Origin: a virus
Virus record (IMG/VR): IMGVR_UViG_3300035698_001188
Location: 1 to 22,595 of that record
Direction: 5' to 3' (one strand)
Length of the DNA stretch: 22,595 bases
Shown: positions 996-20,688 of the stretch, piece by piece
How positions within the stretch are numbered: the stretch's first letter is position 1
Layout of the letters: every line of letters begins with the position of its first letter
Made by a program: the position numbers and the translations under genes
The notes under the pieces: generated by a model
What the model was told of the DNA's origin: nothing
Databases searched by the model: none
What the model saw: the letters and a program-made list of their open reading frames with translations, nothing else

Positions 996-1082
996 ATGCC
1001 ACGTAGAGATGGGACAGGGCCGAGGGGCAAGGGGCCTCGCACAGGCGGGGGTACTGGGAAATGCCCGCCGCGTAAGAAGTAA
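996..1082 (+). CDS. DUF5320-like Gly/Arg-rich mini-protein
   Basis: This 28-residue product begins MPRRDGTGP and continues with GKGPRTGGGTGKC, ending in a basic PPRKK tail. The spacing MP-DGTGP-G-GP-TG-G-G-C is the signature I recall for the DUF5320 family, small Gly-rich proteins of unknown function in anaerobic bacteria and archaea, here reduced to the core motif with Arg/Lys substitutions. It has one cysteine. A perfect Shine-Dalgarno sequence precedes it, and its TAA overlaps the Shine-Dalgarno of the large terminase, so translation of the two is probably coupled. An in-frame ATG at 936 would add a CKKC-containing extension but has no good ribosome site. The role is unknown; an RNA- or DNA-contacting basic peptide is one possibility. 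Confidence 0.65.
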   Translation: MPRRDGTGPRGKGPRTGGGTGKCPPRKK

Positions 1083-1089
1083 GGAGCAT

Positions 1090-3423
1090 ATGCAAGCAGT
1101 AAAGCAATACCGTGAGATAGAGGATGGGAAGTACATATTAAACCTGCACAAAGGGCAGGGTAAGGCTTGGCTGTCCAAGAAGCGGTATATCGTTATGTCA
1201 GCCGGATACCAATGCCTTGATGCCAATGAGTACGTTTATACAGAACACGGTGTGGTTGTAGTTAAAGATATCCATAATGGTGATGCGGTACTTGGCGGTA
1301 ATGTATCGAACAGGGTAGAATTTGACTCAGATATCTACGAGGTAAAATTTGCTAACGGCATAAGCATTAGGTTATCCCCTGAACATCCATTATGGTACAG
1401 GAAGGATGTGCGTTGTCCTGCTAAGTGGATGACTGTAGCTGACGCAAGCAAGCGTAGTCATGGGTATGTTCAGTTTTTAAAACCAGGATCAGATTCAGGA
1501 CAATACCAACCGTTCGCAAAGCTAATTGGGTACATGACTTCTGATGGTAGCTTTACTGATGGGCAAGCCGTTAAGTTCACTAATATCAATCGTGATTTCA
1601 TCGACGACGTATCCCAACTAGCGCAGTCGTTTGGTATGAAAACAGAGGCAAAGCCAAAGGGTAAGGGTTGGGATTTACATCTTACTTTTAATCAGGGGCA
1701 GAAAAATCCATTGCGCGAGTATCTAAAAATACTGAGTATCACACAGGATAGCTTTGGAGATGTTACGCAATTTAGCAAAGGCTCTCTTGTTAAATTCCTT
1801 CGTGGGTATTTCAATGGTGACGGTTATTTAAGGATAACTAAGAGAGAGACTGGTGATAAGAGGCTTGACTGTGCTGAGATAGGATTCTGCACAGCTACCA
1901 AACAGAAATCTATTGAGATGCAATATATTCTGTGGAAATTTGGTATCATCTCTACGGTACGTCACGAGATGATGAAGAAAAGCACCATGCCTTTCTATAG
2001 GGTTTCTGTGAATGGCAAGTTTGTTAAAATGCTTCTTCCGCTCCTAGATTGGTGGAAGTACCCGGATAAGTTTAAACAGGCTGAGGATTTACCAGACACC
2101 AATATAGACAAATACAAGGATATCGATGGTGGCTATTGGATAGCAATTAGAAGTATTAAATGTATCGGTATCGGCAAGGTTGTGGGTTGGGAGACGATTG
2201 GCAATAGTGAGATTATCTCTTACTGCGGCATGAGAACTCACAACTCTGGGAAAACATGCTTTCAACCTGACTGGCTAAGGCGGGAAATCAATGAGCGAGG
2301 GAACGGTGACTACCTGGTAGTGACAGCTACGTTCCCATTGTTAGAGTTGAAGCTGCTCCCTGAGTTTCGGCTCGTGTTCGAGCAGTCATTTCATTTAGGG
2401 GAGTATTTAGATTCCAAGAAGATGTTTCAATTCAGTCGCGTACTCCCGGGCGGGAAGGACAAGTCGATAGACCCAACCAGGATAATCTTCGCTTCTGCAA
2501 CGCATCCTGAGTCTATAGAGTCTGCTACAGCTAAAGCGGCTGTCCTAGATGAGTGTGGACAGATGCAATTTCAGAGAGGTTCACACGAGGCTATCGTTAG
2601 AAGGCTGAGTCTCCATCAGGGACGGATTCTATACGGAACGACTCTTTATAATGCCGGTTGGTTCATAGACGAGGTTTACGACGCTGCGCTCAGGGGAGAC
2701 CCTGATTTTGAGCTAGTGCAGTTCGACTCAACCATGAACCCCGCTTTCCCTAAAGAGGAGTACGAGAAGGCCAGAGCTACAATGCCGAGTTGGAAGTTCG
2801 CCATGTTCTGTCAGGGGAAGTTCATACGACCCACTGGACTGGTTTACGACTCGTTCGACCCTGCTGCCTGCATAATCCCCCGCTTCGATATTCCCAAGAA
2901 CTGGCTGGTCTATGTAGGGCATGATTTCGGCAAAGCCAACCCGGCAGCCATGTTCTATGCCCAAGACCCCGCTACGGGTATTTTCTATGCGTATCAGGAG
3001 TATATGCCTGGGTCTAGGTCAACCTACAACCACGCTCAAGAGTTTAAAAGGATGACCGCTGGTTACAACGTAGTCGCAAGAGTCGGAGGGAACCGAACGT
3101 CAGAGGACGAGATTAGGCAGGGCTACACGGCTCACGGCTGGCATATACAGATGCCGAAGATAAAGAACGTAGCCGAGCAGATCGGGCGGGTGTACGCCAT
3201 GCACAAGCTGAACAAGGTGAAAGTGTTCTCCGATTTGCATAATTACTTAGACCAGAAGAAATCGTTCTCTTACGAGTTGGACGAGAAGTACCAAGCTACG
3301 GACAAATACGAGGACGAGAGCAAGTTTCATCTTCTGGCGGCTGAGAGGTATCTATTGTCAGACTTTACACCCGAAACGGTACAGATAAAATCTCAATTTA
3401 ATAGGACGTACTTTCCATGCTAG
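1090..3423 (+). CDS. terL: Terminase large subunit, intein-containing precursor
   Basis: This is the packaging motor: an ATPase that translocates DNA into the capsid and a nuclease that cuts it. The precursor has 777 residues, and removing the 344-residue intein leaves about 433, a normal size. Walker A is SAGYQ-SGKT, split by the intein after Gln. Walker B is AAVLDECGQM (LDE at spliced residues 142-144), followed by the coupling motif GTTLYNAG. The C-terminal RNase H-like nuclease begins with YVGHDFGKANPAAMFY (Asp at spliced residue 268) and ends with an acidic segment, DKYEDES. The ATG at 1090 is chosen because AAGGAG (1081-1086) precedes it and because an upstream in-frame ATG at 1009 would run over the mini-gene and add a Gly/Arg-rich leader atypical of the family. 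The spacing to that ribosome site is short (three bases), so the start is likely but not certain. The stop overlaps the next start by seven bases. Confidence 0.93.
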   Translation: MQAVKQYREIEDGKYILNLHKGQGKAWLSKKRYIVMSAGYQCLDANEYVYTEHGVVVVKDIHNGDAVLGGNVSNRVEFDSDIYEVKFANGISIRLSPEHPLWYRKDVRCPAKWMTVADASKRSHGYVQFLKPGSDSGQYQPFAKLIGYMTSDGSFTDGQAVKFTNINRDFIDDVSQLAQSFGMKTEAKPKGKGWDLHLTFNQGQKNPLREYLKILSITQDSFGDVTQFSKGSLVKFLRGYFNGDGYLRITKRETGDKRLDCAEIGFCTATKQKSIEMQYILWKFGIISTVRHEMMKKSTMPFYRVSVNGKFVKMLLPLLDWWKYPDKFKQAEDLPDTNIDKYKDIDGGYWIAIRSIKCIGIGKVVGWETIGNSEIISYCGMRTHNSGKTCFQPDWLRREINERGNGDYLVVTATFPLLELKLLPEFRLVFEQSFHLGEYLDSKKMFQFSRVLPGGKDKSIDPTRIIFASATHPESIESATAKAAVLDECGQMQFQRGSHEAIVRRLSLHQGRILYGTTLYNAGWFIDEVYDAALRGDPDFELVQFDSTMNPAFPKEEYEKARATMPSWKFAMFCQGKFIRPTGLVYDSFDPAACIIPRFDIPKNWLVYVGHDFGKANPAAMFYAQDPATGIFYAYQEYMPGSRSTYNHAQEFKRMTAGYNVVARVGGNRTSEDEIRQGYTAHGWHIQMPKIKNVAEQIGRVYAMHKLNKVKVFSDLHNYLDQKKSFSYELDEKYQATDKYEDESKFHLLAAERYLLSDFTPETVQIKSQFNRTYFPC
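1213..2244 (+). other. Intein with LAGLIDADG homing endonuclease, inside TerL Walker A
   Basis: This in-frame element of 344 codons starts with Cys (CLDANEYVYTEHG, splicing block A) and ends MRTHN before a Ser, giving Cys1, penultimate His, terminal Asn and Ser+1 as needed for standard protein splicing. Block B is RLSPEHPLW (His58). Two endonuclease motifs are present, LIGYMTSDG (residues 104-112) and LRGYFNGDG (196-204), each with its catalytic Asp (111 and 203), so homing activity may be intact. Block F is weak: the usual Asp and His are not evident in the stretch before YCGMRTHN. Removing the element rejoins AGYQ to SGKT, a complete P-loop. GC is lower than in the flanking terminase (about 41% over five counted 60-base lines against about 51% over three), fitting separate acquisition. 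Confidence 0.93.
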
Positions 3424-7362: not shown

Positions 7363-9033
7363 ATGAAGAAACTTATCGCAGAGATTGACAAGAAGTTCGA
7401 TTCTACCGAGTTCAGGAATAGGGTCAAGGTAATAGAGGATGACCTTGGGCGGTATTTCCAAACCACCAAGTACGAGATTCTTGGCACAGAGGGGGATATT
7501 AAAAACAAGCCTCTCCCTGGCATGACCTTCGTTTCCTCCAACAAAGCTCAGACGTGGGCGAACTACTGCATGAACATCCTCTCCTCTGCCGATCCTGTGA
7601 TAAACATTACCAAGCGTGACTCTAACCTGACCCCGACTGACATTGCTCTTCTAAAGAACTTCTGGGATGTAGTCTACACATCGGCTAACTATGAGCGTGA
7701 GGAGAATGGGGAGTTGCCTATAAACCAGCATAATTCCTTCGAGTCAGTAATGACAGACACGGACATTATGTGCGGGATAGTCGAGCATATCGACAAAAAG
7801 ATTAGGTTCAAGATTCAGGTTGCCGAAACTACAACCGCATGTTGGGCTAAGGGGAAAAACGGAATCAAGTGGGTAGCCTTCAGGTTCCCCAAGACCAAAG
7901 ACGAGATAAAAGACGAGTATGGGATTGAGATAAAAGAGGATGAGGCCAACGAGACTCATTGGTGGGGATACAAAGACGACAAGGTAACACAGATTATTTT
8001 CATTGAAAAGGATGTTGTACCAAACGGAACTATCGACTGGTCTGCGTCTATGGAGAAGATTCCGATAGCGATAAGCCCTGTTCTGTTGGTTCCGCAGGTT
8101 CGTATCGGAACTACCTTAATGACCTCTGGTGCTTCGATATATTGGGGGCAGCGTGACCAGCTTGACGAGTTGAACAGGTCTAAGTCTATCAAGGCTACCT
8201 TCCTAATGAGAGAGGCCGTCCCCGCGTTAAAGCATAAGTCCGTAGCGGCTGATGGCACACCTGGCAGTTCCCTTGCTCGTTATCCCAAAGACGGCTCAGT
8301 AACCGATATGCTCAATAAGGACGAGGACATCCTGCCGGTGTTTATCAACACACCTACGGGGCTGGCTGCTGCTGATTCTTATGACAGGGATAACATGGCT
8401 GAGGTGGAGCAAAACTCGGTTCCTGAGATTGCCTATGGCGGACAGGAGTTCGCCGGAATGCCTACGTCGCTGTGGGACAGGCGGGCGTTCCAGATGGCTA
8501 AAGTTCTAATGCCCCGTCGAAAAGCAATGGAGATAGCCTACAAGCATCTGTTTAATTCCATGTTTGAGCAATTCTGCAAGATGAACCTCGAAATTAACGC
8601 CGGTGGGGAGAAGGGTTACTCGGATCAGAAGATAACCTCTGCCGAGTTGGAAAAGCTCAAAGGTAAATTCTCGGTTAAGTTCCTTGTGACCTCGGTTGAG
8701 CCGCAGGGAGATATGCTGAAGTTCCAGAAAGCTGAGATTGCTCTACAGGCTGGCGTGGACTCTGATTGGGTTGATGAGCATATCTTGGAATACGATGATG
8801 TTAAGACTGTCAGGGAGAACCGTATCAAGAGAGCGTCGTTAGAATTACGCCCTGAGCATAACTTGTTTGAACTCTACTCGGTTCTTTGTAAAGAATACGA
8901 CAACATGAAGAATGGACGGGAGAGGAAGATGCTTCTCCAAAGATTGAAGCTCATGGAAGCCGACCTGAAGATGATAGCAGAACGGGCGGTATCTGGAGGT
9001 AAAGATGAACCCAACAGCAGACCAACTCGTTGA
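7363..9033 (+). CDS. Portal protein
   Basis: This 556-residue protein would form the dodecameric ring at one capsid vertex through which TerL pumps DNA. The length is typical. The N-terminal part has the segment FVSSNKAQTWANYCMNILSS (residues 56-75), matching the portal pattern in which a short strand is followed by a helix. WGQRDQLDELNRSKSIKATF (261-280) fits the portal stem helix region, and the C-terminus is a long, charged helical stretch (about 430-545). Tryptophans and glycines around 195-205 (THWWGYKDD) lie in the wing. AGGAG in the ribosome site overlaps the previous TAG, nine bases before the ATG. The call also fits its place upstream of the scaffold and capsid genes. It rests on recalled family patterns and context, and no enzymatic activity is expected. 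Confidence 0.75.
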   Translation: MKKLIAEIDKKFDSTEFRNRVKVIEDDLGRYFQTTKYEILGTEGDIKNKPLPGMTFVSSNKAQTWANYCMNILSSADPVINITKRDSNLTPTDIALLKNFWDVVYTSANYEREENGELPINQHNSFESVMTDTDIMCGIVEHIDKKIRFKIQVAETTTACWAKGKNGIKWVAFRFPKTKDEIKDEYGIEIKEDEANETHWWGYKDDKVTQIIFIEKDVVPNGTIDWSASMEKIPIAISPVLLVPQVRIGTTLMTSGASIYWGQRDQLDELNRSKSIKATFLMREAVPALKHKSVAADGTPGSSLARYPKDGSVTDMLNKDEDILPVFINTPTGLAAADSYDRDNMAEVEQNSVPEIAYGGQEFAGMPTSLWDRRAFQMAKVLMPRRKAMEIAYKHLFNSMFEQFCKMNLEINAGGEKGYSDQKITSAELEKLKGKFSVKFLVTSVEPQGDMLKFQKAEIALQAGVDSDWVDEHILEYDDVKTVRENRIKRASLELRPEHNLFELYSVLCKEYDNMKNGRERKMLLQRLKLMEADLKMIAERAVSGGKDEPNSRPTR

Positions 9034-9226
9034 CAACCTGTGCACCAGCCTCAATAAGATATGGGCAAACCGTCCTGCGCCCGTACAAGCGTCGCAAGGA
9101 TTGACGGGAATGCCCTCCAAAGGCTTTGCGGGTAGTAAACCCCCCGACCAGCCTCTTAACCCCCCTACTTCAAATATGAAAGAAGAGTATCCTATGGCAA
9201 TGGGCGAGGCAAATGGCCGACAGTAA
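9005..9226 (+). CDS. Small proline-rich protein between portal and giant protein
   Basis: The product has 73 residues: an N-terminal amphipathic helix (TADQLVDNLCTSLNKIW) followed by a Pro/Gly/Ser-rich, probably disordered tail (SKPPDQPLNPPTSN). A strong ribosome site (GGAGGT, 8995-9000) four bases before the ATG and overlaps with both neighbours (29 bases with the portal gene, 14 with the next) argue that it is a real gene. No family is recognised. The helix-plus-flexible-tail build and position would suit a small portal- or capsid-associated accessory protein, but this is inference. Confidence 0.6.
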   Translation: MNPTADQLVDNLCTSLNKIWANRPAPVQASQGLTGMPSKGFAGSKPPDQPLNPPTSNMKEEYPMAMGEANGRQ

Positions 9227-12200
9227 GATAAAAACGTATCTTAGCGGTAAAACGGGCGCTGTCCCCGACCTGTCCCGACACGCCGGTGGGCGCATCGAGC
9301 AAATCCGGCGTGGGCTTATATCCCCTTGGGCTGTAACAGGCAGCGAGAGGGCTATGGCTGCGGAACCGAAGGGGCAGGAGCATATCGGTTATAACAAATG
9401 GCGCGAGGCTCAGGCTGACAAAGCATCGGCAAAGGCTGAAGAGCGCAGGCAGTCGGCTTTAAAACGTGCTGGCAGGGAGCCGAGAGTCAAAGAGCGCAGG
9501 GTCTATGCCGAGACTGGTAAATATTATGACGATGCTGGCAAACGATACGACGTAGAGGAAATACCTCTTGATGAGTCCCTTGAAGAACAGCGTCTTGGGG
9601 AATACGGTAGGTTTGAGTCCGAGGTAGGAATGTCTCTACAGGACACGCTTGATGTCCGTGAGGGCGTGGGCAAGGTGTCACAGCGCAAAGAGGCGTGGGA
9701 ATCTTTAATGTCCCCTGCACAGTTAATCACCCGGGAGGAATACTGGAACGATATATTTAAACGTGCCGACTATGCCTTATGGAAGATGTCGGAAAACGTA
9801 TACCTTGCTGGCGTATATGGTGGTACTGTAACTACTGACCAGTATGCTCAATTTAAAGTTTACTTCGGGGCATGGCTGGACGCTACCGACACGAACGCTA
9901 TGGACATGAACATCCCCGATTTGATAAGTCATATCGCATTCAATGATATCATCCCAGTATCGTTAGATGCCATAATAAACGCAGGTGCGATACATTACGG
10001 CGATGTGATTACAGTAGAGGAAGCGGCTGGATTCTCCTTTGATATATCTTCATTCAACACGGACTACGGCGATGCCACTATGGTCGTCACGCGGGACGAG
10101 AACGGCAATCATGTTATTACTATAAGGAAGAAAATCGGAACACAGAACTATGGCGACGGCTTTATCTATTCCGAGGTAATAGTTGACCCCGAAGTGTTCC
10201 GCAAGCGTGATTTCTCCATTGACCAGGTATTGACCGCAGACGAGGCTCGGTTCTATTTCCCCGAACTTACAGGCGACGGCACGTTCGTTATTGGGCTTAA
10301 CGAGGCTGGCACGGCCTATACAATCAAGAGTGCGGTTGATGTTAGTGGTTGGACGGTAGAGTATGGTGTTACCGACAGCGATATTCGTTTTATATCTTCA
10401 GAGGGAGTGGTATACGATAAGGAATCCTTTGACGAGGAAATGACACGGCTACAGCACATCCAAGAACTATTGGGTAGTATCAGGTCAGACTATCTCTCTA
10501 ATATCAATTTGCCTAAATATGTGGGCGTTGGCGATGGTAGCTTTGCGCTAGATGTTTCTAAAGACCTTGAGTGGTCGTTAATATTATCTATGTATCCAGA
10601 GGAGATAACTGGAATTATAGCAGGGGTTGGCCGCACCGAAAGCACAGAAACATTCTTAAGTGAAGTCTATGGCTTGGACGACAACGAGATAAATAAATTC
10701 TTTGGCGATCCGCACAAATGGCAATGGCCTACTGCGTTGCGTGGCGCAGCCGATGCGCTTGGGTTGGCAGACAATGAAGGATATTGGAATCCTGTATTGC
10801 AAGACATTTCTGGAACGGCTCTTGAAGTGCTGGAGCCAGTAGGTGAGTTCTTCGAGGGTGTTACTGACGTTTGGGCGAAGGGGTTATCCTATATATCTGC
10901 TAGGATGGTAAGTACGGGGTGTGGCTTGTTTGGTGTCGAGTATCCGAAGCTAGATGAATTCATTAGAACCTACGAAGCGGCAACAGCCGATAATATTCTT
11001 GGGTTCCTCGGAGATTCCGCAGTAGAAAAGTCGTATAACGATTTACTTCCTACATGGTATCGCGTCCCATTAGAGCTAAGTATGCCTCTATATTGGATTA
11101 TACCTGGTGCCAAGGTACTATCAATGAAGCTAGTGCCTGTAGTGGCACGGGGCGGGCTTATAGGAACGTCTGCTAGGGTTGCTAGGATAAGCCTTGGCCC
11201 TCTAGTTGCGTTTGAGACTGTTGCCTTTAAGGGCTTAAAGTTTGGTATCAGCTTCCCGTTCAAGGTTGGCAAGGGTGTAGTCAAACCAGTAATGAAGATG
11301 CTTGCTAACGTAAGTATGGATGCACAGTTTAACCGGATGCTGTCACGGGCAGGGATTCGTAGAACTAGCTATAGCGCACTAAGGATTATGCGTAATGTCC
11401 TCACGAACCACAATAAGGAAATCTCCGCGTCGGTACAGAAAGCATCAACTAGCGTCAAGGGCAATAACGTCAAGCATGTCGTTGATGCCGCAACTAAGGT
11501 TGCAGAGGAACTGAAGCCTTTCATGGATGCTGCCATAAAGGAAAGCAAGTCTGTTCCTAAACTACGCAGTATAAAGGAAACGTCTGCTCTAGCTAATAAC
11601 ATGGGGTATGATTTCGTGGTTAAGGGGAAGGGTTATCGCATCATAGGCAATGGCGACAACATCTATGCCCGTAATCTGCAAGAGGCGACTAACTTCCTTG
11701 AAGCACATAACATCACCGGCTACAGTGACGGCACAACGAGGCTTGCCCGCATCCAAGAGTTGACACGGAGGGGGCCCCTGACCGCTATTGAGCAGGCTGA
11801 GTTTGATGCCTTGAAAAGCAATGTTGGTCAGGCTTACGCTAGTATGGCAGCTAGAGATGCGTTCCCACAGTGGAACATAAGGCATCCTTACGTCATTGAC
11901 ACCACAGCCGAGGCGCGGAAGATAATCAACGAGAAGCTGTACCTACCTACCGATAACGCCGTAGACAGGGCTTCCACAGCATTCCTAAATAAGTCCGTAA
12001 GAAGTGGCAAGCCGTTATCCGAGTGCATCGATGCTATGGTAAGGGAAATGCCGGACGTTTCCGCAATGAAGATAGAGGCAATAGGTAAAGTTGTTAAAGG
12101 CAACATGAAAGAGTTGCAGGGGCTAAGGCAACTAGCCGTAAATGAATATGAGGCAACCCTTCGGTTTGCAGGGAAAGCCACTGAGGAGGCTACTAATAGG

Positions 12201-15200
12201 GTAAATAATATCTTATTAACTCGCTACGGCAAAGGCATCCTGAGCAAGCCATTAATAAAGGGTGCTGAGGTTGATATTGGCAAGGAAACAACCAGGATTA
12301 AGAAAATGGTTCTGCTTGCTGCGAAAGAATTAAAGTCTGATATAGAGTTCTACGATGATTTGATTGGACGAATACCCACAGGTGGTAAGTTAACAGTGGA
12401 GGATGCCTATAGGCTTGGTATAGCCACTAGGTCAACCAAGAGTGGGAAGATAGCACCACTAATCAGGGAGAGTGGCATTTACGTCAAGGCTGACTTTATG
12501 AACCCTGAGATGTACGTCGAAGTTTCTGGAACAAGTGCGTTACTTTCTCCCCCAAGGTATCTCTTTCAGCAGATGGATCGCGGAATATTTGATAGAAAGA
12601 TTCAGCAGTCTGTCCATTGGCCTGCTGAAAGAACGATGCAGGCAAGGGATAACTTTGTGCCACGTTTATCTCAGGATTTCAAGGATAGGGTTTCTGAATT
12701 TGGATTAGTTGATGCTGACAAATCAGTACGGACGAAGGTGTTCGATGTTGCCGATAAGATAGATAAGGTCAGGGCATCAATGACATTAGATGACCTAATG
12801 GAAGTCGCTGAGATGCGTTCTCTCGTTTCTAAGCTGTCTCCTGATATGCAAAGACGTGTTGTTGGGACGGCTATGCGATTAAGGCCATTCTACGATGAGA
12901 TGCGGGATATGTTAAACAAGATTCGTGTGCGTCGTGGAGAAGATGCGATAGGGTATATAGAAGATTACATGACTTATGCTCGTAAAACCGGTGTGTGGGC
13001 GAAGTTTGGTGGGTGGGCTAAAGGTGCTGAGGAAGTGCCTTATGCTTTTGACTTTATGAAGGCTCCTAAGAAAATTACCATACCGCAGGAGTTGGAAAGA
13101 CTTGGTGGCTTAGAGTCTTGGGAATTAGAGAAGGACTTTGTTTTAATTACCCAGAACTACATAGACGCTGTAAGCAAAGCAATATTTAACACTAATATAC
13201 TACAGAATACCAAGATACACGCTCAGGCGTTATTGGCTATGGGTTTCAAGAGTAATGCTGCAATCCTAGAGAGGTGGGCACAAGAATGCTATGCTGGTGT
13301 GTTGCCTACTATAGAGCAGTATATACGGAAACTACCCAAGCCACTGTGGGCGTTCCCTTACTTTATGAGAGCGCAGCTAAACCGTGCTGTGTTCCCATTA
13401 AACTTTGCGTGGAACCTTACAGTACAGCCTAGCTCTTACCTCTTAACTCCTGTCCATGTGGGGTTACGCAGGGCAATAGGGGGGTTTGAGTACCTGGTTA
13501 ATTCTACTGCTAGGAAATTAATACAAGAAAACGTATATTCTTGGCAAGTCAAGGCCGAAAGATTTGGTAGTGTTTCGATGCAAGACTTGGAGAAGTCATC
13601 TGAGGTACTGCTATCCAAGGGAAATATATTAGATAGGGCTACCTACTACGGTAACTTTCTGACTCGCCTAATTGAGTCTAATGTTACTGGTATGTCGGCA
13701 TGGGCTGGCTATCAGGATGCGTTGGCGCGTGGTTTCACTGGACGCAAGGCGTGGCAATGGGCATCGGATGTTGGGGCAAAGACGCAATCCATGTATAACA
13801 AAGAGGATTTACCAGGTCTTTTGAGGTCTAGGTTTATGGGAACCGTCGCTCCGTTCCAGACATTCTCTTTCGAGTGCTTTAATAAAGTTAGGGAGATTAG
13901 CTTTATAAGATACGGGCGCACAGGTGCTTACCAGACCATAGCTGCCAATACTGAGTTCGGGCAAGGCTTGCTAAGGATACGGATGCTCAGGATAGCGGAG
14001 TGGATCGCCGGTATGTGGGCATGGAATGAGGCTACTGAGGCTATCGCTGATAAAACGGTGTGGCATATATCCGCATTCGTGCCATTTTTTAATCTTCTAA
14101 CAGGTGGTTCAAACGTAGCTAATCCTTGGAATCATCCTATACCGATTCAATACGTCTCTGAGTTTTGGACGGGCTTCAATCAGAAAATGCAATACGACGA
14201 GTGGGATGGATTAAGAGAGTGGATGGTACGCTATCACGTTGTTGGCGGTACGCAGATAAATAGACTCTTGAAATCTATGGAGGCAATTTCCGAGGGCGGT
14301 GTTACCGATACCGCCGGTAAGGAATTATTCTCCCTAGACACGGAAGATACATGGGAGATATTCAGGGCTTTGCTTATGGGGCCGTATGGCACTAAGGCTG
14401 GTGTTGAGTACCTTGAGGGTAAAGAGTTACTACCAGGTGAGATGGAAGAATACTTTGAAGGGCTGTTAAACGGCGAGGGGTTGATAGAGGACATGAAGGG
14501 CTACCTACGCCGAGAGGATGGGTTCTTCTCTGGGTTTGCCCCCGACTTCATTGCAAGGCATCTGAGTGATTTCCTAGTTATAGATACTCCTAGTGCCTAC
14601 GATATAGGCGAGAGGCTGAACTATGGCGAGGGGCTGATTGGTGCGGTAGACGAGGAAGGCAACGTGTTTACCATGCAGGTATTCGCCAGATTCGTGAGCA
14701 TCATTGACGGTCATGTACGTGCCGAACAGATGGAGTCAAGCGTATTCGGGTTAAGCGAACTACTCTTCTACTCACGGGATCAGTGGGCTGACTACAAGGA
14801 ATTAGACGAGGAATTGCGGTTTGAGTATCGCAGGAACAATCCCGAAGTTGATGCGCTGATGTTCTTGTGGGGAGAAGTGTCTACGTTGAAATCCCCCGCA
14901 GCATTGATAAAACTCGAAGAACTTATGGAAGCGTACTCTATTCCCGACGATGCTATACCTTCCCTAGCTAACATAAACGGGGAAGTCCTACACCTACAGT
15001 ACGATTGGCGATTTACCTTCGATACCTACGAAGAACTGGAAACATCGGAGGAAAAGAGTGCGTATCTGGAGAGTCACCCTGACTTCGCAAACGTGCGTAA
15101 GGAAATAGAAGTCCTACAGATGATAGATAACGGTGCTATCACCCCTGAATTGAAAGAGCCGTATCTTGAATATTATAAGGTAGAAGGTAATTGGGGTTGG

Positions 15201-15575
15201 AGTCAGAAGAACTACATGAGAGACAACCCTGAGTTCTATCAATGGTGGGTAGAACAGAACCACGAAACCATAGACTTCAACAGGCTCCCTAATCCTGCCG
15301 AACATACTCTAATCGAGGCATACGAAGCCATAACAGACGGCAAGTTAAAAGACGTGTGGCGATGCCAGAGTCAGGCCGGAGATGCTGCGCTGGTGAAATA
15401 CAAGGGGATGGCTCCTATGTATGGCGGGAACGAATGCCAAGCCTTACTTCGTGACTACCCCCTAAATGTGAGAGGCAACATGCAGCAGTTCTTCACAGGG
15501 ACATCGAATGTAACCGAGAACATGGCTCCTACGTGGGATACGACCGTGAAGGAAGAATTTGAAGGGTTAGAATAG
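9213..15575 (+). CDS. Giant 2120-residue virion-associated protein (polyvalent/ejection-type candidate)
   Basis: One uninterrupted frame covers more than a quarter of the window. The N-terminus (1-200) is highly charged; about 200-420 is beta-rich; two hydrophobic, Gly-containing stretches (about 618-637 and 660-682) could contact membranes; about 720-1220 is helical. The segment from PFYDEMRDMLNKIRVRRG to IEDYM (1225-1253), the FPLNFAWNLTVQP patch (1394-1406), the GAKTQSMYNKEDLPGLLR to APFQTF block (1521-1552) and a hydrophobic run (about 1590-1635) resemble, from memory, the LPD38-like region of large phage polyvalent proteins. The last 450 residues are acidic. I see no certain lytic transglycosylase, protease, kinase or helicase motif. 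Position between portal and scaffold and the sheer length suggest an internal virion or DNA-ejection protein; a tape measure is less likely because no tail-tube genes surround it. Start: ATG 9213 behind GGGCGAGG. Confidence 0.6.
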   Translation: MADSKIKTYLSGKTGAVPDLSRHAGGRIEQIRRGLISPWAVTGSERAMAAEPKGQEHIGYNKWREAQADKASAKAEERRQSALKRAGREPRVKERRVYAETGKYYDDAGKRYDVEEIPLDESLEEQRLGEYGRFESEVGMSLQDTLDVREGVGKVSQRKEAWESLMSPAQLITREEYWNDIFKRADYALWKMSENVYLAGVYGGTVTTDQYAQFKVYFGAWLDATDTNAMDMNIPDLISHIAFNDIIPVSLDAIINAGAIHYGDVITVEEAAGFSFDISSFNTDYGDATMVVTRDENGNHVITIRKKIGTQNYGDGFIYSEVIVDPEVFRKRDFSIDQVLTADEARFYFPELTGDGTFVIGLNEAGTAYTIKSAVDVSGWTVEYGVTDSDIRFISSEGVVYDKESFDEEMTRLQHIQELLGSIRSDYLSNINLPKYVGVGDGSFALDVSKDLEWSLILSMYPEEITGIIAGVGRTESTETFLSEVYGLDDNEINKFFGDPHKWQWPTALRGAADALGLADNEGYWNPVLQDISGTALEVLEPVGEFFEGVTDVWAKGLSYISARMVSTGCGLFGVEYPKLDEFIRTYEAATADNILGFLGDSAVEKSYNDLLPTWYRVPLELSMPLYWIIPGAKVLSMKLVPVVARGGLIGTSARVARISLGPLVAFETVAFKGLKFGISFPFKVGKGVVKPVMKMLANVSMDAQFNRMLSRAGIRRTSYSALRIMRNVLTNHNKEISASVQKASTSVKGNNVKHVVDAATKVAEELKPFMDAAIKESKSVPKLRSIKETSALANNMGYDFVVKGKGYRIIGNGDNIYARNLQEATNFLEAHNITGYSDGTTRLARIQELTRRGPLTAIEQAEFDALKSNVGQAYASMAARDAFPQWNIRHPYVIDTTAEARKIINEKLYLPTDNAVDRASTAFLNKSVRSGKPLSECIDAMVREMPDVSAMKIEAIGKVVKGNMKELQGLRQLAVNEYEATLRFAGKATEEATNRVNNILLTRYGKGILSKPLIKGAEVDIGKETTRIKKMVLLAAKELKSDIEFYDDLIGRIPTGGKLTVEDAYRLGIATRSTKSGKIAPLIRESGIYVKADFMNPEMYVEVSGTSALLSPPRYLFQQMDRGIFDRKIQQSVHWPAERTMQARDNFVPRLSQDFKDRVSEFGLVDADKSVRTKVFDVADKIDKVRASMTLDDLMEVAEMRSLVSKLSPDMQRRVVGTAMRLRPFYDEMRDMLNKIRVRRGEDAIGYIEDYMTYARKTGVWAKFGGWAKGAEEVPYAFDFMKAPKKITIPQELERLGGLESWELEKDFVLITQNYIDAVSKAIFNTNILQNTKIHAQALLAMGFKSNAAILERWAQECYAGVLPTIEQYIRKLPKPLWAFPYFMRAQLNRAVFPLNFAWNLTVQPSSYLLTPVHVGLRRAIGGFEYLVNSTARKLIQENVYSWQVKAERFGSVSMQDLEKSSEVLLSKGNILDRATYYGNFLTRLIESNVTGMSAWAGYQDALARGFTGRKAWQWASDVGAKTQSMYNKEDLPGLLRSRFMGTVAPFQTFSFECFNKVREISFIRYGRTGAYQTIAANTEFGQGLLRIRMLRIAEWIAGMWAWNEATEAIADKTVWHISAFVPFFNLLTGGSNVANPWNHPIPIQYVSEFWTGFNQKMQYDEWDGLREWMVRYHVVGGTQINRLLKSMEAISEGGVTDTAGKELFSLDTEDTWEIFRALLMGPYGTKAGVEYLEGKELLPGEMEEYFEGLLNGEGLIEDMKGYLRREDGFFSGFAPDFIARHLSDFLVIDTPSAYDIGERLNYGEGLIGAVDEEGNVFTMQVFARFVSIIDGHVRAEQMESSVFGLSELLFYSRDQWADYKELDEELRFEYRRNNPEVDALMFLWGEVSTLKSPAALIKLEELMEAYSIPDDAIPSLANINGEVLHLQYDWRFTFDTYEELETSEEKSAYLESHPDFANVRKEIEVLQMIDNGAITPELKEPYLEYYKVEGNWGWSQKNYMRDNPEFYQWWVEQNHETIDFNRLPNPAEHTLIEAYEAITDGKLKDVWRCQSQAGDAALVKYKGMAPMYGGNECQALLRDYPLNVRGNMQQFFTGTSNVTENMAPTWDTTVKEEFEGLE

Positions 15576-15604: not shown

Positions 15605-16315
15605 ATGACTGACGGAGGGCAGCAACCAGAGACTACGGGAGGGCAACCGCTTCAGGAAACTGCAACGGCTTCCCAAGCGGAAACTAAGGCTCCTGATGAA
15701 TCCGTCCTGCAAACGCTGAAGGAAGCGATTGACACAGAGGCTAACAAGGTACACTCCACGCTCAGAAAAGACCTAGACGCTCATGGCAAATACCTGAAGC
15801 TGGCAGGCTACGAACTAGGCCAGCGAGATAGCAGGATTTCCAAGCTGCAAGAGGATTACGATTCCCTCGTGGCGAAGGGCGAAGGCGGCGCGGATATGGT
15901 GAAGCTCCGCAAGCAAGCGGAGGATCGGCTAAATACCGCTCTCAAGAAAGAGACAGACAATGCGTGGAAGGAGGCTGAGTTGGGGGAAAATGCCAGACTT
16001 CTTCAAGAGACCCTAATTAGTGGCTTGATAGACAAGCTGGCTACCGCCAAGGAAGGCGACCCTGAGTTAAGGAAATCCTTGATAGCAAACATCAAGTCCT
16101 TTAATCCCAAGACACCGGAAGATGTCGAACGGATTGCTGGCTTGATAGTAGTGAAGCCTCCAGTCAATACTCCCGAAGCAAAAGTAATAGGTGGCGGCGG
16201 GGCGAACCCTTCTGATGAGCAGTTCCAGAAGGAATACTCTGAGGGGAAACATATATTGCCTGCCGATCACAAACGAGCAAAGCAAATAAACGACAGAATC
16301 CTTAAAGGAGGCTAA
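15605..16315 (+). CDS. Capsid scaffolding-like protein
   Basis: This 236-residue protein is very hydrophilic. The N-terminus (1-30) is Gln/Thr/Gly-rich and disordered. Residues about 35-150 are helical and coiled-coil-like, with dense Lys/Glu/Leu (LRKDLDAHGKYLKL, RISKLQEDYDSLVAK, LRKQAEDRLNTALKK). A Gly-rich linker (VIGGGGANPSDEQ, about 195-207) leads to a short basic C-terminal helix (HKRAKQINDRILKGG). This architecture, placed immediately before the major capsid gene, is typical of scaffold proteins that template capsid assembly and then leave. There is no protease motif, so removal would need another factor. A strong ribosome site (AGGAGG) precedes the ATG. It could also be a minor head protein. 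Confidence 0.65.
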   Translation: MTDGGQQPETTGGQPLQETATASQAETKAPDESVLQTLKEAIDTEANKVHSTLRKDLDAHGKYLKLAGYELGQRDSRISKLQEDYDSLVAKGEGGADMVKLRKQAEDRLNTALKKETDNAWKEAELGENARLLQETLISGLIDKLATAKEGDPELRKSLIANIKSFNPKTPEDVERIAGLIVVKPPVNTPEAKVIGGGGANPSDEQFQKEYSEGKHILPADHKRAKQINDRILKGG

Positions 16316-16317
16316 AT

Positions 16318-17184
16318 ATGGCCACTGGAAACATAACGACTGGCTCCCTTGCTGACAGTCTACCTACTGTAATCTCCTCAGCAATGGTAACGAGGGAATA
16401 TGAAGGCGTAATGCCTAACCTCGTTGATAAGAAAACCCTTGGCGAAGGTATCGGCCTTACATGGAACGAGATAACCCTTGACGCATTGACGGCTGTTGCT
16501 GTAACCGAGACTACGGAACTTGATAACCCTCAACAGCTTGCAGACACGCTGCTCTCAATCACCCCTACTGTGATTGGCGTTGAGACGTTCATTACTGACC
16601 GCGTGGCTGCGAGAATCAGTGCTATAGTTTACGCCCAGATAGGCGGGCAAATGCAGAATGCCATCCAGCGCAAGAAAGACGAGGATGGGCTGGCAATGCT
16701 CGACGCTGCGACAACCTCATTGTGCGGTGCGGGTGCTACACTGACTACAGGACACCTCACGGCTGCGAAGGCTCAGATAGCGCACTACAAGGGTAATGCT
16801 CCGTATTATGGCGTTCTCCACTCATATCAGGAGAAGGACGTAGCGGATGAGATTACCGCAGGTGTCGGCGCTTACGCTATCCCCGAAGGACTTACCGCCC
16901 GTGTGTTTGAATCAGGCGTTATCGGTCAGGTTGGTGGAGTCACCCTGTTCAGGGACGACAATATCAGCATTGATACGGCTGACGATGCTAAGGGTGGAGT
17001 GTTCGCTATGGAAGGCATCATACTGGTGCAGGGTCGTTCGCCCAGAACCGTTGCTGTACGACGTGAGAACATCGGTGGTGGTGGAACCTCAATCTACCAG
17101 TACGACGAGTATGCCTACGGTGAGCGTACCGCTGGTTACTGGCTGTTTGAAATTTACAGTGACGCAACTGCCCCGACTTCGTAG
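16318..17184 (+). CDS. Major capsid protein (HK97-fold type)
   Basis: The 288-residue product would form the icosahedral shell. The N-terminal arm (TTGSLADSLPTVISSA) leads into MVTREYEGVMPNLVDKKTL and GLTWNEITLDAL, followed by the acidic segment VTETTELDNPQQLADTLLS, a likely extended loop, and a long spine-like helix region (about 100-135, with QNAIQRKKDEDGLAMLD). The C-terminal half contains YGVLHSYQEKDVADEI, typical of the central domain of such capsid proteins, and ends in the strands FAMEGIILVQGRSPRTVAVRR and YDEYAYGERTAGYWLFEIYSD (shown in part). It has an excellent ribosome site (AAGGAGG, 16305-16311) two bases after the scaffold stop begins, fitting high expression. The family call is by pattern recall and context. 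There is no delta domain or protease-cleaved prosequence evident. Confidence 0.8.
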   Translation: MATGNITTGSLADSLPTVISSAMVTREYEGVMPNLVDKKTLGEGIGLTWNEITLDALTAVAVTETTELDNPQQLADTLLSITPTVIGVETFITDRVAARISAIVYAQIGGQMQNAIQRKKDEDGLAMLDAATTSLCGAGATLTTGHLTAAKAQIAHYKGNAPYYGVLHSYQEKDVADEITAGVGAYAIPEGLTARVFESGVIGQVGGVTLFRDDNISIDTADDAKGGVFAMEGIILVQGRSPRTVAVRRENIGGGGTSIYQYDEYAYGERTAGYWLFEIYSDATAPTS

Positions 17185-17191
17185 GTAACAC

Positions 17192-17413
17192 ATGAATAAG
17201 AGACGTGAGGTTTGGCAAGAGGCACACGGCATAATCCCTAAAGGGTGGCTTGTTCATTCTTTGAACGGAGACAAGGGGGATATTCGTTTAGAGAATCTTG
17301 CTGCGGTTCCCCGCTATCCTGTTCATCAGGGGCAAGTGACCGCACCATACGTAGAACGTATAAGAAAATTAGAGCTAAAGCTCTTAAAAGGAGAAATAAA
17401 TGGCGCAAAGTGA
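17192..17413 (+). CDS. Small HNH-type endonuclease-like protein, catalytic His replaced
   Basis: This 73-residue protein matches the HNH_3 pattern in which a Trp precedes a G-IP-G turn and then a V-H-H-NGD block: WQEAHGIIPKGWLV then HSLNGDKGDIRLENL. In active relatives the second position of the HH or DH pair is the general-base histidine; here it is Ser (Val-His-Ser), while the NGD and ENL residues are kept. The DNA-binding module that usually follows is reduced to a basic helix (ERIRKLELKLLKG). The protein is therefore likely inactive as a nuclease, a domesticated remnant, or a nickase with altered chemistry. It has a weak ribosome site (AGGT, 17183-17186), and its last 14 bases overlap the start of the next gene, whose ribosome site it contains. 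Confidence 0.65.
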   Translation: MNKRREVWQEAHGIIPKGWLVHSLNGDKGDIRLENLAAVPRYPVHQGQVTAPYVERIRKLELKLLKGEINGAK

Positions 17414-18149
17414 ATACGGTCGAATCAATATATTCGATGACTTTACAGGCCAAGAATGGACGGTAGCGGAAACCGCCGATGATTCCATGAATTGTGGCGC
17501 ATTCCGTGTTATCGGGCAGGGTAAAGAGGATACTGATTCCGGTGCTGTTAGCATGGAAACAGACCCCAACCTTAACGGGGTAATAGTCCTGACAACCACT
17601 AATGAAACTGAGCATACTTTAGGCTTGACAACCGCAAAGATGTTCGATGTTGCAAAGATGGGAACGCTCGTCGCCGAGATAAGGGTACAGTTTCCTGACC
17701 TTGATGAAAAACAGTTTTACTTCGGATTTACCGATGTAAACGACGACACAGCTATTCTTGAAGGCGGGAACCTGCTCGGAAGCACCGAAACTATAACCCT
17801 TACGGCGTCTGACCTGTGCGGATTCCTTTTCTCGTCAGAGCTTACCGAAGATGAGATGTGGCACATGGTCTACAACGGAGGTACTACTACGGGAGAAACG
17901 GACTCTACTGATATAGAGTCTGGCATTGACGCGGTTTCAGGTGAGTACAACATCCTGAAGTTGGAGATTGATCCCAACGGAACCGCAAGGTGGTACGTGG
18001 ACGGCGTACTGAAGCAGACCGTTGCTGGTGCTGTTTCACTCACGACTGATCTGGCTTGCATGGCTATGGTAGAGACAAAAGCTGCGGAAATTCAGTATGC
18101 CAAACTTGACTACTTTGGTATCAAAGCCAATAGGGACTGGACGGTATAA
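17400..18149 (+). CDS. Lectin-like structural protein (capsid decoration or fibre candidate)
   Basis: The protein has 249 residues. The overall pattern fits a concanavalin A-like or LamG-type jelly roll: an opening DDFTG--W segment, strands such as GTLVAEIRVQFP and QFYFGFTDVNDD (about 96-116), and a closing YNILKLEIDPNGTARWYVDG (181-200) then AKLDYFGIKANRDW. The IDPNG--RWYVDG turn is a hallmark of such domains in virion surface proteins. No signal peptide, membrane segment or catalytic residues are seen. AAGGAG at 17388-17393 gives a good start at 17400. Coming right after the capsid genes, it probably coats the shell or forms a fibre; sugar binding is possible but unproven. Confidence 0.6.
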   Translation: MAQSEYGRINIFDDFTGQEWTVAETADDSMNCGAFRVIGQGKEDTDSGAVSMETDPNLNGVIVLTTTNETEHTLGLTTAKMFDVAKMGTLVAEIRVQFPDLDEKQFYFGFTDVNDDTAILEGGNLLGSTETITLTASDLCGFLFSSELTEDEMWHMVYNGGTTTGETDSTDIESGIDAVSGEYNILKLEIDPNGTARWYVDGVLKQTVAGAVSLTTDLACMAMVETKAAEIQYAKLDYFGIKANRDWTV

Positions 18150-18150
18150 G

Positions 18151-18861
18151 ATGGCTGATGTACAGTTAGCAACCCTAAAAGACATCGAAATGTCAGGCCG
18201 AAGCGCGGTTGCCCCTGTCAGAGTAGCTGAGGGACAGTCAAACTCGGCTTGGTTTGCAAAAGACGGCTCAACCGTTAGTTTCCCTTGGAAGCAGGCTCTC
18301 GTACTTGAGGGACGGTGTTTCCATGTACAGGTAGGAGCCTTAGTAACAGCCATAGCTTGCGGTTCAGGCACAGTTCCAGAGCTTGCCGAGCCTGAGTTGG
18401 TAATCAGTGTCCCTTCGGGGTCAGTGATGATGCCTCTCAGTGTCTATGCAAACACTATCCCTGCTGACGGCTTTGCCAACCACGATGACCTAAACATCAT
18501 ACTTGGCATTGACAGGACGCAGGTGCACGACCTTTCTGGAACATCCACAACCGAGGTTATCTACAACTTGAGGACTGATGCACCGCGTAGCAATACGTGC
18601 ACTGCTGTAAGTGCTGTCACGGCTGACATGACCGCTGCTGCAATAGCTATGGAGCTTATGAGAACAGACGTTTTCATGGAGCAGACCACAGCTGTCGGGA
18701 CTGTGCCTATCATAATGGAACTCCGCTATGAGCCTGTAGCAGCCCCCATAATTGTGGGGCCAGCTATGGTAGTTCTCATGTGGGGTGGAACTTCGGCGGT
18801 AACAGGGTACGCTCAGGCTACATGGGCTGAGTGGACTAAGGCCGAACTCGGCATAGTTTAG
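18151..18861 (+). CDS. Structural paralogue A (virion protein, unknown role)
   Basis: I do not recognise a named family for this 236-residue protein, but it is clearly homologous to the next gene. Shared landmarks are GRCFHVQVGA, the VISVPSGSVMMPL strand, a central GTSTTE turn, and the closing APIIVGPAMVVLMWGGTS then GYAQATWAEW. Copy A has about 45 extra N-terminal residues before the shared core (MADVQLATLKDIEMSG onward). It looks all-beta and lacks transmembrane or signal sequences. The ATG at 18151, two bases after the preceding stop, is chosen over an in-frame ATG at 18097 lying deep inside the previous gene; the ribosome site (GGACGG) is weak, so coupling is likely. It is a candidate head-decoration or appendage subunit. 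Confidence 0.6.
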   Translation: MADVQLATLKDIEMSGRSAVAPVRVAEGQSNSAWFAKDGSTVSFPWKQALVLEGRCFHVQVGALVTAIACGSGTVPELAEPELVISVPSGSVMMPLSVYANTIPADGFANHDDLNIILGIDRTQVHDLSGTSTTEVIYNLRTDAPRSNTCTAVSAVTADMTAAAIAMELMRTDVFMEQTTAVGTVPIIMELRYEPVAAPIIVGPAMVVLMWGGTSAVTGYAQATWAEWTKAELGIV

Positions 18862-18872
18862 CAACTACGTTT

Positions 18873-18893
18873 GGCGGTAGCGTATAAACCGCC
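18873..18893 (+). other. GGCGGT stem-loop after paralogue A
   Basis: GGCGGT (18873-18878) pairs with ACCGCC (18888-18893) over a nine-base loop in the 73-base gap between the two paralogues. No U-run follows. A second, shorter inverted repeat (GCGG 18907-18910 with CCGC 18917-18920) lies just before the next ribosome site. Confidence 0.5.
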
Positions 18894-18934
18894 CCCTAAA
18901 TCAACTGCGGTGTATGCCGCGAGAAGGAAGTAAG

Positions 18935-19537
18935 ATGGCTTATAGATACAAATTAAATGGGGACTGGAGACAGAGAGCAGCCTTCGATGGAAGATGCTAT
19001 CATGTTGACGTAGGTGCGTTCTCCACCGCCATCGTTGGTGGGGGTAATGGTACTGCCGTAACGGCAGATGAGCCTGAGTGCGTGATTAGCGTTCCTACAG
19101 GCTCAGTGATACTACCATTGAGAGTTTCGGTACAGTGTCAGACTCCACTCTTAGTCACCGATGCTGATGAGGCTGAGATTATACTAGCGTGGGATCAGGC
19201 TGCGGCACAGGCTGGAGATGGAACTAGCACAGCAGAGACTTGTCTGCAAATGTTTGGAGGCTCTGGGAGCACTTCATTATGCACGGCAACTTCTGCTTAT
19301 ACTAGTGCCATGACTACACCAACATTGAGTGTTGAATTGGCGCGTAGTGTTGTAACTGGCGACATGAACGGTGCTCCCGCTAATGCACTATGGGGCAAGC
19401 TAGGCTTGTTATATGTGCCTGAGACTGCACCTATAATTGTAGGCCCTGCCATGCTGATAATCTATTGGGGTGGCACGGTAGCTACTAATGGCTTCGCTCA
19501 GGTCGAGTGGCTAGAACTTCTGGTTGGCGACCTCTAA
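18935..19537 (+). CDS. Structural paralogue B (virion protein, unknown role)
   Basis: This 200-residue protein arose by duplication with copy A. Corresponding motifs are GRCYHVDVGA, CVISVPTGSVILPL, GTSTAE, SLCTATSAYTSAMT, then APIIVGPAMLIIYWGGTV and GFAQVEWLEL. Differences are spread over the whole length and there are several small insertions or deletions, so the duplication is old. Copy B lacks the N-terminal extension of A. The ATG at 18935 is preferred to the one at 18914 because AAGGA (18924-18928) sits six bases before it and because homology to A begins soon after. It is probably all-beta. The pair may form a hetero-oligomer or alternate on the virion surface; that is inference. Confidence 0.6.
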   Translation: MAYRYKLNGDWRQRAAFDGRCYHVDVGAFSTAIVGGGNGTAVTADEPECVISVPTGSVILPLRVSVQCQTPLLVTDADEAEIILAWDQAAAQAGDGTSTAETCLQMFGGSGSTSLCTATSAYTSAMTTPTLSVELARSVVTGDMNGAPANALWGKLGLLYVPETAPIIVGPAMLIIYWGGTVATNGFAQVEWLELLVGDL

Positions 19538-19555
19538 AATTGAATAAAGGGCTTT

Positions 19556-19579
19556 GGCGGTGTGCCTCGAAACACCGCC
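19556..19579 (+). other. GGCGGTGT stem-loop after paralogue B
   Basis: GGCGGTGT (19556-19563) pairs perfectly with ACACCGCC (19572-19579) over an eight-base loop. Both this and the stem-loop after paralogue A are preceded by TTT and built on the same GGCGGT/ACCGCC core. TATTTAAAA follows, then the next ribosome site. It may be a terminator or RNA-processing signal, but there is no proper U-run. Confidence 0.55.
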
Positions 19580-19598
19580 TATTTAAAAAGGAGGTGCT

Positions 19599-19736
19599 AT
19601 GGAGGAAATAATAGTTACCAACGACTTTATAAAGTCCTTTCCTGACTGTTGGAAGTTCTTCTCCGATAAAACCATTCTCGGAATAACAAGGAAAACAGAC
19701 CAGTATACTGGTTTATTGGTAACGGAGTCTGAATGA
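19599..19736 (+). CDS. Small hypothetical protein (45 residues)
   Basis: A short frame, MEEIIVTNDFIKSFP then CWKFFSDKTILGIT, ends at the TGA at 19734-19736. It is supported by a nearly perfect ribosome site (AAGGAGGTG, 19588-19596) just after the GGCGGTGT hairpin, and by the ATGA overlap with the next gene. The sequence has one Cys and several aromatic residues and no recognisable domain. It occupies what would otherwise be a 195-base gap. No function can be proposed. Confidence 0.6.
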   Translation: MEEIIVTNDFIKSFPDCWKFFSDKTILGITRKTDQYTGLLVTESE

Positions 19737-20065
19737 GTGACTTAATTCTAGGCACATCAGCAATTAACGAAAACGAGCCTTGCTTTAAGCTCTGTGAGAT
19801 GAACCTGCAAAGCCCTGGTTCAAAGGGATGGCATCGTTACCAAATCATTGAAGTAATACGAAACGATAAGCCAGCAGAGTTCAGGATAGACCTCGGACTA
19901 GCAAAGAAGTTCAAGCGTGAGCAATTCAGAATCATAGGGGGTGTCAAAGACCCAAAGACAGGACGCGGTGAAGCCTTACACACGGTAGGCGAACTGATAA
20001 ACATGGCTAACGAACTAAGAGAAAAACCTGTTTGCGATAAACGGGAACTTGCACAAATAAACTAA
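19733..20065 (+). CDS. Hypothetical protein
   Basis: This 110-residue, mildly basic protein reads as a compact mixed alpha/beta fold: HRYQIIEVIRNDKPAEFRIDL in the middle, the basic LAKKFKREQFRIIGG segment, and a C-terminal helix GELINMANELREK (about 86-98). I do not recognise a family. It begins in an ATGA overlap with the 45-residue gene and is followed 11 bases later by the zinc-finger-like gene, so the three are probably translated together. The basic segment could bind nucleic acid, but there is no direct evidence. Confidence 0.5.
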   Translation: MSDLILGTSAINENEPCFKLCEMNLQSPGSKGWHRYQIIEVIRNDKPAEFRIDLGLAKKFKREQFRIIGGVKDPKTGRGEALHTVGELINMANELREKPVCDKRELAQIN

Positions 20066-20076
20066 AGGAGTATGCA

Positions 20077-20688
20077 ATGGAGGACAATCGCAGTAACGAA
20101 GAACTAATCGAAGAAATGCTCAGAAACGCTAAGGATGCTCCTGAGCCCGGGAAAAACGAAAAGGTAGTAGACAAAGGCTCTGACAACACGGGGCCGATAG
20201 TAGTGTCCAGCCTCAAGTCGGCGGGCTACGCTTATGTTTTCGACAACAAAACTGGTGAGAGGAGCATCGTCAATCGTAATATGTTAATGGCACAGTTGCG
20301 AAAAAAGCGTGATGACGGCTCTTTCGTATTCACCACTGTAAACCCTAAAATCGTGCCTTGGCGTGGCAAATCGAAGTGTATGCTGCACGTAGACGACCCC
20401 AACCGTGCACACTACGACGAGATGGGTCTACCGAAGTGCAGGAAAGCAAACATCACCTCTCCCTTCCAAGTAGTCAGGCATATGGAAAAGAGGCACAAGG
20501 CCGAGTACGCTGCAATCAAATCAGAAAAAGCAGACGCAGAGAGGGCTGAGGAAAAAGAATACCGCAGGAGCGTTCTCGATCTGTCTAGGAGCAGGAAAGC
20601 TGAGGAGCTTCCATTCAGTGACCCTCCGAAGGAAGATGAGGAGAAGAAACCTCGCAGGAAGATAAACCATCGTAAAAAGAAAGAATAG
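20077..20688 (+). CDS. Putative zinc-binding protein (C2H2-like)
   Basis: The product has 203 residues. A cluster of potential metal ligands lies at Cys101, His104, Cys121, His135 and His140: KCMLHVDDP then LPKCRKANITSPFQVVRHM and EKRH. The half FQVVRHMEKRH has the helix and H-x4-H spacing of a classical C2H2 finger, but the first two ligands are far apart (19 residues), so the finger would be unusual. The N-terminus is acidic and disordered, then comes a small domain (YAYVFDNKTGERSIVNRNM, about 51-69). The C-terminus is a long charged helix ending in a Lys/Arg-rich tail (KKPRRKINHRKKKE). It probably binds DNA or RNA, perhaps packaged DNA or a regulatory site. AAGGAG (20065-20070) precedes the ATG. 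It is not a known structural family to me. Confidence 0.6.
   Translation: MEDNRSNEELIEEMLRNAKDAPEPGKNEKVVDKGSDNTGPIVVSSLKSAGYAYVFDNKTGERSIVNRNMLMAQLRKKRDDGSFVFTTVNPKIVPWRGKSKCMLHVDDPNRAHYDEMGLPKCRKANITSPFQVVRHMEKRHKAEYAAIKSEKADAERAEEKEYRRSVLDLSRSRKAEELPFSDPPKEDEEKKPRRKINHRKKKE

Follow-up and report, generated by a model that had tools for sequence, protein, structure and literature searches.

The window analysed here, the 22,595-base linear virus fragment of IMG/VR record IMGVR_UViG_3300035698_001188, carries a giant protein gene (9213..15575, +) that is read as a single unbroken ATG-started open reading frame (ORF) of 2120 aa, with GAGG 3 nt 5′ of its ATG and a family of ~50 homologues; chance is ruled out by such a length of open frame, and the ORF is real. 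It is preceded by a 556-aa portal protein (7363..9033, +), which was identified by profile-profile comparison of 17 homologues with 7 annotated podoviral portals (HHalign probability 94%, P 1.3e-7), and is followed by a 236-aa scaffold-like protein (15605..16315, +) that has similar ORFs in relatives and sits immediately 5′ of the major capsid protein (MCP; 16318..17184, +). The MCP matched Pfam Phage_capsid_4 (E 4e-6), and MCPs in viral contigs are 60–67% identical to it. An earlier note on this DNA, made from the letters alone, had placed the giant between portal and scaffold, and the profile comparison upstream, the scaffold-like and MCP genes downstream and the retention of this slot in ~20 relatives bear this out.

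When the giant protein was scanned whole and by segments, nothing of note was found in Pfam, PHROGs or NCBIfam; the protein alone had no noteworthy match among PDB sequences, and tblastn with the whole giant and its segments against 50,697 phage records returned nothing. These results agree with the same note's claim that most of the length has no recognisable domain, and the profile scans found no enzymatic cargo domain in the window giant. Two candidate matches were set aside: a PHROGs antitoxin match at residues 408–428 (E 0.0016), which spans 21 residues and was judged to be chance, and a POR1 match (tblastn, E 2), which falls in a separate 245-aa structural protein adjoining the tape measure. 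Hydrophobic Gly-rich stretches had also been claimed; such a stretch is present in the hydropathy profile at residues 615–690 (11055..11282, +), with a weak match of the relative L048 over residues 629–802, but no 19-residue window of the protein exceeds a mean hydropathy of 1.5.

Scanning with segment 1354–1660 yielded 2 homologues, and their alignment yielded ~50 more in viral contigs and 1 in a Patescibacteria-assigned contig. These alignments place the giant in a previously undescribed family, almost wholly from uncultured phages. Its members share a conserved, mostly alpha-helical core of ~770–920 residues, defined by alignments, tree and structure model and corresponding to window residues ~850–1770 (11760..14522, +). 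Within the core, family conservation marks the motif RAVFPLN..WN...Q.SS..LT at residues 1386–1412 (13368..13448, +), and the strongest family signature lies at residues 1510–1565 (13740..13907, +), where GR..W..AS..GAKTQSMYNKED...LR......PFQTF.FE..N..RE combines an invariant TQS-Y-N (T, Q, S and Y columns) with a PFQTF motif. No match to Pfam, PHROGs or PDB sequences recurred among the 43 cores, and 24 full-length members gave isolated domain matches only (one DnaJ, one HNH); malic-enzyme, HNH and DnaJ matches were each confined to single members and were rejected as family traits. The record MT835607, an unannotated phage sequence from human faeces, encodes a 2685-aa member (L189:13404-21461; core hidden Markov model (HMM) E 2.9e-16), and no further record matched when the 50,697 phage records were queried with the window giant and three other members. 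The MT835607 member sits 3′ of scaffold and MCP, not 5′. The Patescibacteria-assigned member (L108) lies in a 38-kb contig of that genome (JALLOP010000002) and possibly belongs to a phage of that group. At L083 (9847-10977 and neighbours) the giant gene is spread over three successive ORFs (1412, 376 and 404 aa), owing to a frameshift or an error in sequencing.

Outside the core the members diverge. For the variable N-terminal part (residues 1–845; 9213..11747, +), a dedicated scan found no homologue among family members or viral contigs and there was no PDB-sequence match; the N-termini of 43 members fell into 21 similarity clusters, the window's being the sole occupant of its cluster. The core is followed by a C-terminal extension (residues 1766–2120; 14508..15572, +), which is found in the portal-adjacent branch of the family and is missing from most of the other branch. 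Extensions in the window branch measure 125–950 residues, and 23 of 28 belong to one similarity cluster.

The family occurs in two gene layouts. In the first, window-like layout, a portal lies upstream with 0–4 intervening ORFs and scaffold-like and MCP-like ORFs lie downstream; the giants are 1115–3051 aa long, with a variable N-terminus and the extra C-terminal extension. This order of portal, giant, scaffold-like protein and MCP is kept despite differing MCP types (the partner MCP of L058 is phrog_1357, while those of L072 and L074 match the window MCP). In the second layout, no portal is nearby and the giant ends at the core, downstream of tail/nozzle-type virion proteins (phrog_376, phrog_3287). 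At L085 the giant comes directly after a run of three, made up of a tail protein (phrog_376, E 1.7e-190), a protein annotated as an internal virion protein (phrog_418, E 1.3e-18) and one of 481 aa; at L079, L087 and L094 nozzle-type virion proteins (phrog_3287) lie upstream of it. The gene after the L085 giant has an N-terminus that appears, in our reading, to be of the T7 gp17 tail-fibre type, which would give the T7 order gp12-14-15-16-17. On the core tree, in which the layout labels of L056, L063, L078, L080 and L090, lacking upstream sequence, were taken from downstream genes or the extension, one change between layouts suffices (branch support 88/82); of 500 label shuffles, 0 needed so few. 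The tree therefore indicates that the gene switched layouts once in the history of the family; with rooting by midpoint only, the gene would in the window branch have been relocated from a tail/ejection cassette to the portal–scaffold slot. When the count was confined to members with ≥4 kb of upstream sequence, 15 of the 16 that adjoin a portal had an extension of >100 aa, compared with 1 of the 19 others; the P of 7.5e-8 overstates independence because the association rests on a single tree event.

When the whole giant, the portal or the terminase large subunit (TerL) was the query, viral and genome contigs yielded zero relatives; with the window MCP as the query, the viral contigs yielded 39, most at 60–67% identity. 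Those with enough upstream sequence have an ORF of 1328–2255 aa directly 5′ of the scaffold; a giant in the pre-scaffold slot is therefore a trait of this lineage. The giants themselves are mostly without detectable similarity to that of the window, the exception being the L048 giant (1328 aa), which is homologous to it (HMM E 1e-10, HHalign probability 96%). Giants of 1630–2255 aa lacking such similarity occupy the slot at L034, L040, L043, L045, L021, L022, L028 and L050-L055, and the L034 and L050 groups match each other weakly (HHalign P 2.5e-5). The giants of the L034/L043 group (1806–2255 aa) resemble the window's in slot and in an adjoining MCP that is 60–65% identical to the window's, but are not significantly similar to the window giant in sequence, and the L034-group giants were set apart from its family after BLAST and HHalign comparison. 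In L034 (413-3553), L040, L043, L045 and L021, an ORF of ~750–1050 aa before the giant ends in a LVGEEGPELALFPRGTEIVPL motif and a conserved basic tail; this motif resembles tape-measure C-termini.

The strict keeping of the order portal, giant, scaffold, in the window branch and also in those MCP relatives whose giants are unrelated, is what would be expected of a head-morphogenesis protein of the MuF/minor-head slot. Such a protein would be a large assembly factor that, instead of being ejected, remains within the procapsid or gives the portal vertex its shape. We regard this explanation as unlikely, given that Pfam found no Mu F domain in the whole protein or its segments and that the homologous core of the other branch lies in an ejection cassette, distant from portal and scaffold.

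As for the remaining genes, the window MCP and the next three genes (17400-20688) have 41–67% identity to marine and other viral contigs with different giants. As judged from these identities, the head module is mosaic, the MCP and following genes being kept among contigs whose giants differ. Adjacent 254- and 207-aa proteins (18097-19537) resemble paralogues and are possibly capsid decoration proteins. The TerL gene (1009..3423, +; phrog_2, E 2.5e-17) contains an intein of 344 residues (1213-2244, +), matched by NCBIfam intein-containing models, which lies after residue Q68 and before the S of SGKTC and ends C...HN. A small ORF at 462-866 has a head-to-tail PDVT repeat of ~8 copies, and repeats are visible in other frames too.

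The structure of core residues 850–1770 was predicted by AlphaFold2 from 43 sequences, giving a helical model with a predicted local distance difference test (pLDDT) score of 79 and a predicted template modelling (pTM) score of 0.77, in line with the helical arrays that the earlier note had described. A long helical hairpin (residues 959–1053; 12087..12371, +) is formed by model helices 110–156 and 163–204. A PDB fold search with the core model gave nothing at E < 0.001; the PDB rows from VIA-align cover the helical hairpin alone and were rejected as common matches to unrelated coiled coils. Length, hydrophobic segments and helical content would suit a tail tape measure encoded at an unusual place, and that note had named a tape-measure profile with coiled coil over the full length as evidence against its own proposal. 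This was not seen for the folded core: the model is a compact, globular assembly of many helices, in which the coiled-coil hairpin covers ~95 residues only. No tape-measure family was matched in Pfam or PHROGs, and relatives carry nozzle-type podoviral tail genes, which together make a tape measure highly improbable.

Searching BFVD with the core model returned 52 chains at E < 0.001 (best E 6.5e-14), and these are mostly giant phage proteins, many of the named ones being called polyvalent or large polyvalent associated. The core thus has a fold similar to those of giant phage proteins. An LPD38 module, one of those taken from viral contigs, was folded with 30 sequences, and its BFVD search shared the chains A0A4D6BGS1 and A0A6J5RRX0 with that of the core, among the matches listed; an LPD38-like fold is suggested for the core by these models. 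The best local HHalign alignment likewise set the TQSMYN region of the window family in register on the LPD38 core, at a non-significant probability of 0.5–4% (P 0.01–0.11). The giant could accordingly be conceived as a divergent LPD38-type polyvalent protein, whose core would be a packaging/translocation module and whose N-terminal half, consistent with the 21 N-terminal clusters, would hold effector or counter-defence activities released in the host. Against this, the LPD38 HMM (PF18857; Pfam curated cut-off 27 bits, with the positive control BcepIL02 gp70 at 127 bits) had no match in the window record, the 43 cores or the 24 full-length members. A polyvalent protein would show at least two recognisable effector domains; zero were recognised in the window giant, catalytic ones included, and the DnaJ and HNH matches were single among the full-length members. 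Membership of LPD38, as the earlier resemblance had implied, is thus not borne out by the profile comparisons, and we consider the polyvalent explanation somewhat improbable, the similarity of fold being suggestive.

In the reading that we hold probable, the giant serves a podovirus-like phage as a capsid-internal ejection (pilot) protein, and its gene moved once to the portal–scaffold slot. The argument for a capsid-internal, portal-loaded and ejected protein is that one core is shared between an ejection-cassette slot in one branch and the portal–scaffold slot in the other. Further points in favour are the single switch of layout on the tree, the association of the extension with the portal slot, the BFVD matches of the core model to giant phage proteins, among them the T7-like 'Putative internal core protein' of Ralstonia phage RSB3 (E 4e-4), and a hydrophobic peak that most members have near +550 to +650 of the core. 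The earlier proposal of a capsid-internal protein gains indirect support in this way, with the slot widely kept and a homologous core ending a podoviral internal-virion-protein cassette. Mechanistically, the conserved helical core may do the work that in short-tailed phages falls to the final and largest of the ejection proteins (T7 gp16-like): the giant would be loaded into the procapsid near the portal, would exit via the portal ahead of the DNA or together with it and would help to build a channel across the cell envelope. In the course of assembly, the C-terminal extension may link the giant to portal or scaffold, and the lineage-specific N-terminal ~850 residues may carry envelope-penetrating or host-acting functions. 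A more specific version is held tentatively, namely that this is a new giant ejection family whose gene left the tail/ejection cassette once, joined the portal–scaffold block and gained a procapsid-loading extension, its N-termini serving as a delivery slot for lineage-specific activities.

Several points weigh against an ejection protein. The window slot is a head-assembly slot, not an ejection cassette, and a neighbour recognised as an internal virion protein occurs in one ejection-cassette locus only (L085). The window giant showed no lysozyme or transglycosylase domain, and its own hydrophobic peaks are weak. The BFVD match to the RSB3 internal core protein has a low TM-score of 0.27. The P-value linking extension and slot is inflated by its single evolutionary event, and presence of the giant in virions is something that we infer.

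Ejection proteins are among the least understood parts of virions and are mostly matched by position only. The family described here joins two gene orders via a common alignable core, and its signature TQS.YN ... PFQTF is usable to find giants missed by current databases. That an extension accompanied the move to portal and scaffold suggests where a loading signal of ejection proteins may lie, and the core is a possible structural bridge from T7-type ejection proteins to LPD38 polyvalent giants.

Among known systems, LPD38 polyvalent proteins such as Burkholderia phage BcepIL02 gp70 (4667 aa) are likewise giant single chains with a variable N-terminal part and a C-terminal module of ~850–900 residues with suggestive overlap in fold. 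They differ in sequence, with no HMM or significant profile-profile match, in the conserved motif (TQS.YN/PFQTF in the window family, AKNLTVNFNRRG/NASIQG in LPD38) and in their enzymatic domains, none of which was found in the window family. The N4-like virion RNA polymerase is likewise giant and travels inside a podovirus head, from which it is ejected (PMC12633501), a location that the window giant would share; it is larger (~3500 aa vs 2120 aa), and no polymerase domain was found in the window giant. T7 gp16-type proteins diverge rapidly, often find no match by sequence, are identified for the most part from size and synteny and have putative C-terminal transmembrane helices (PMC8954989). 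In the search for similarity to solved gp16, the core profile matched nothing relevant among PDB sequences, as is often so for gp16-like proteins. Compared with gp16 (1318 aa), the giant of the window is longer, lacks a recognised hydrolase domain and detectable sequence similarity to PDB chains, carries a C-terminal extension and lies in the portal–scaffold slot rather than at the end of an ejection cassette. That end position is held by the L085 homologue, in whose branch the core comes last in the order nozzle, internal virion protein, ~480-aa protein, giant; similar size, a mostly helical composition and a hydrophobic segment late in the family core are further likenesses. The giant probably represents a new variation on ejection proteins, at the level of a family, whose gene lies in an unusual place.

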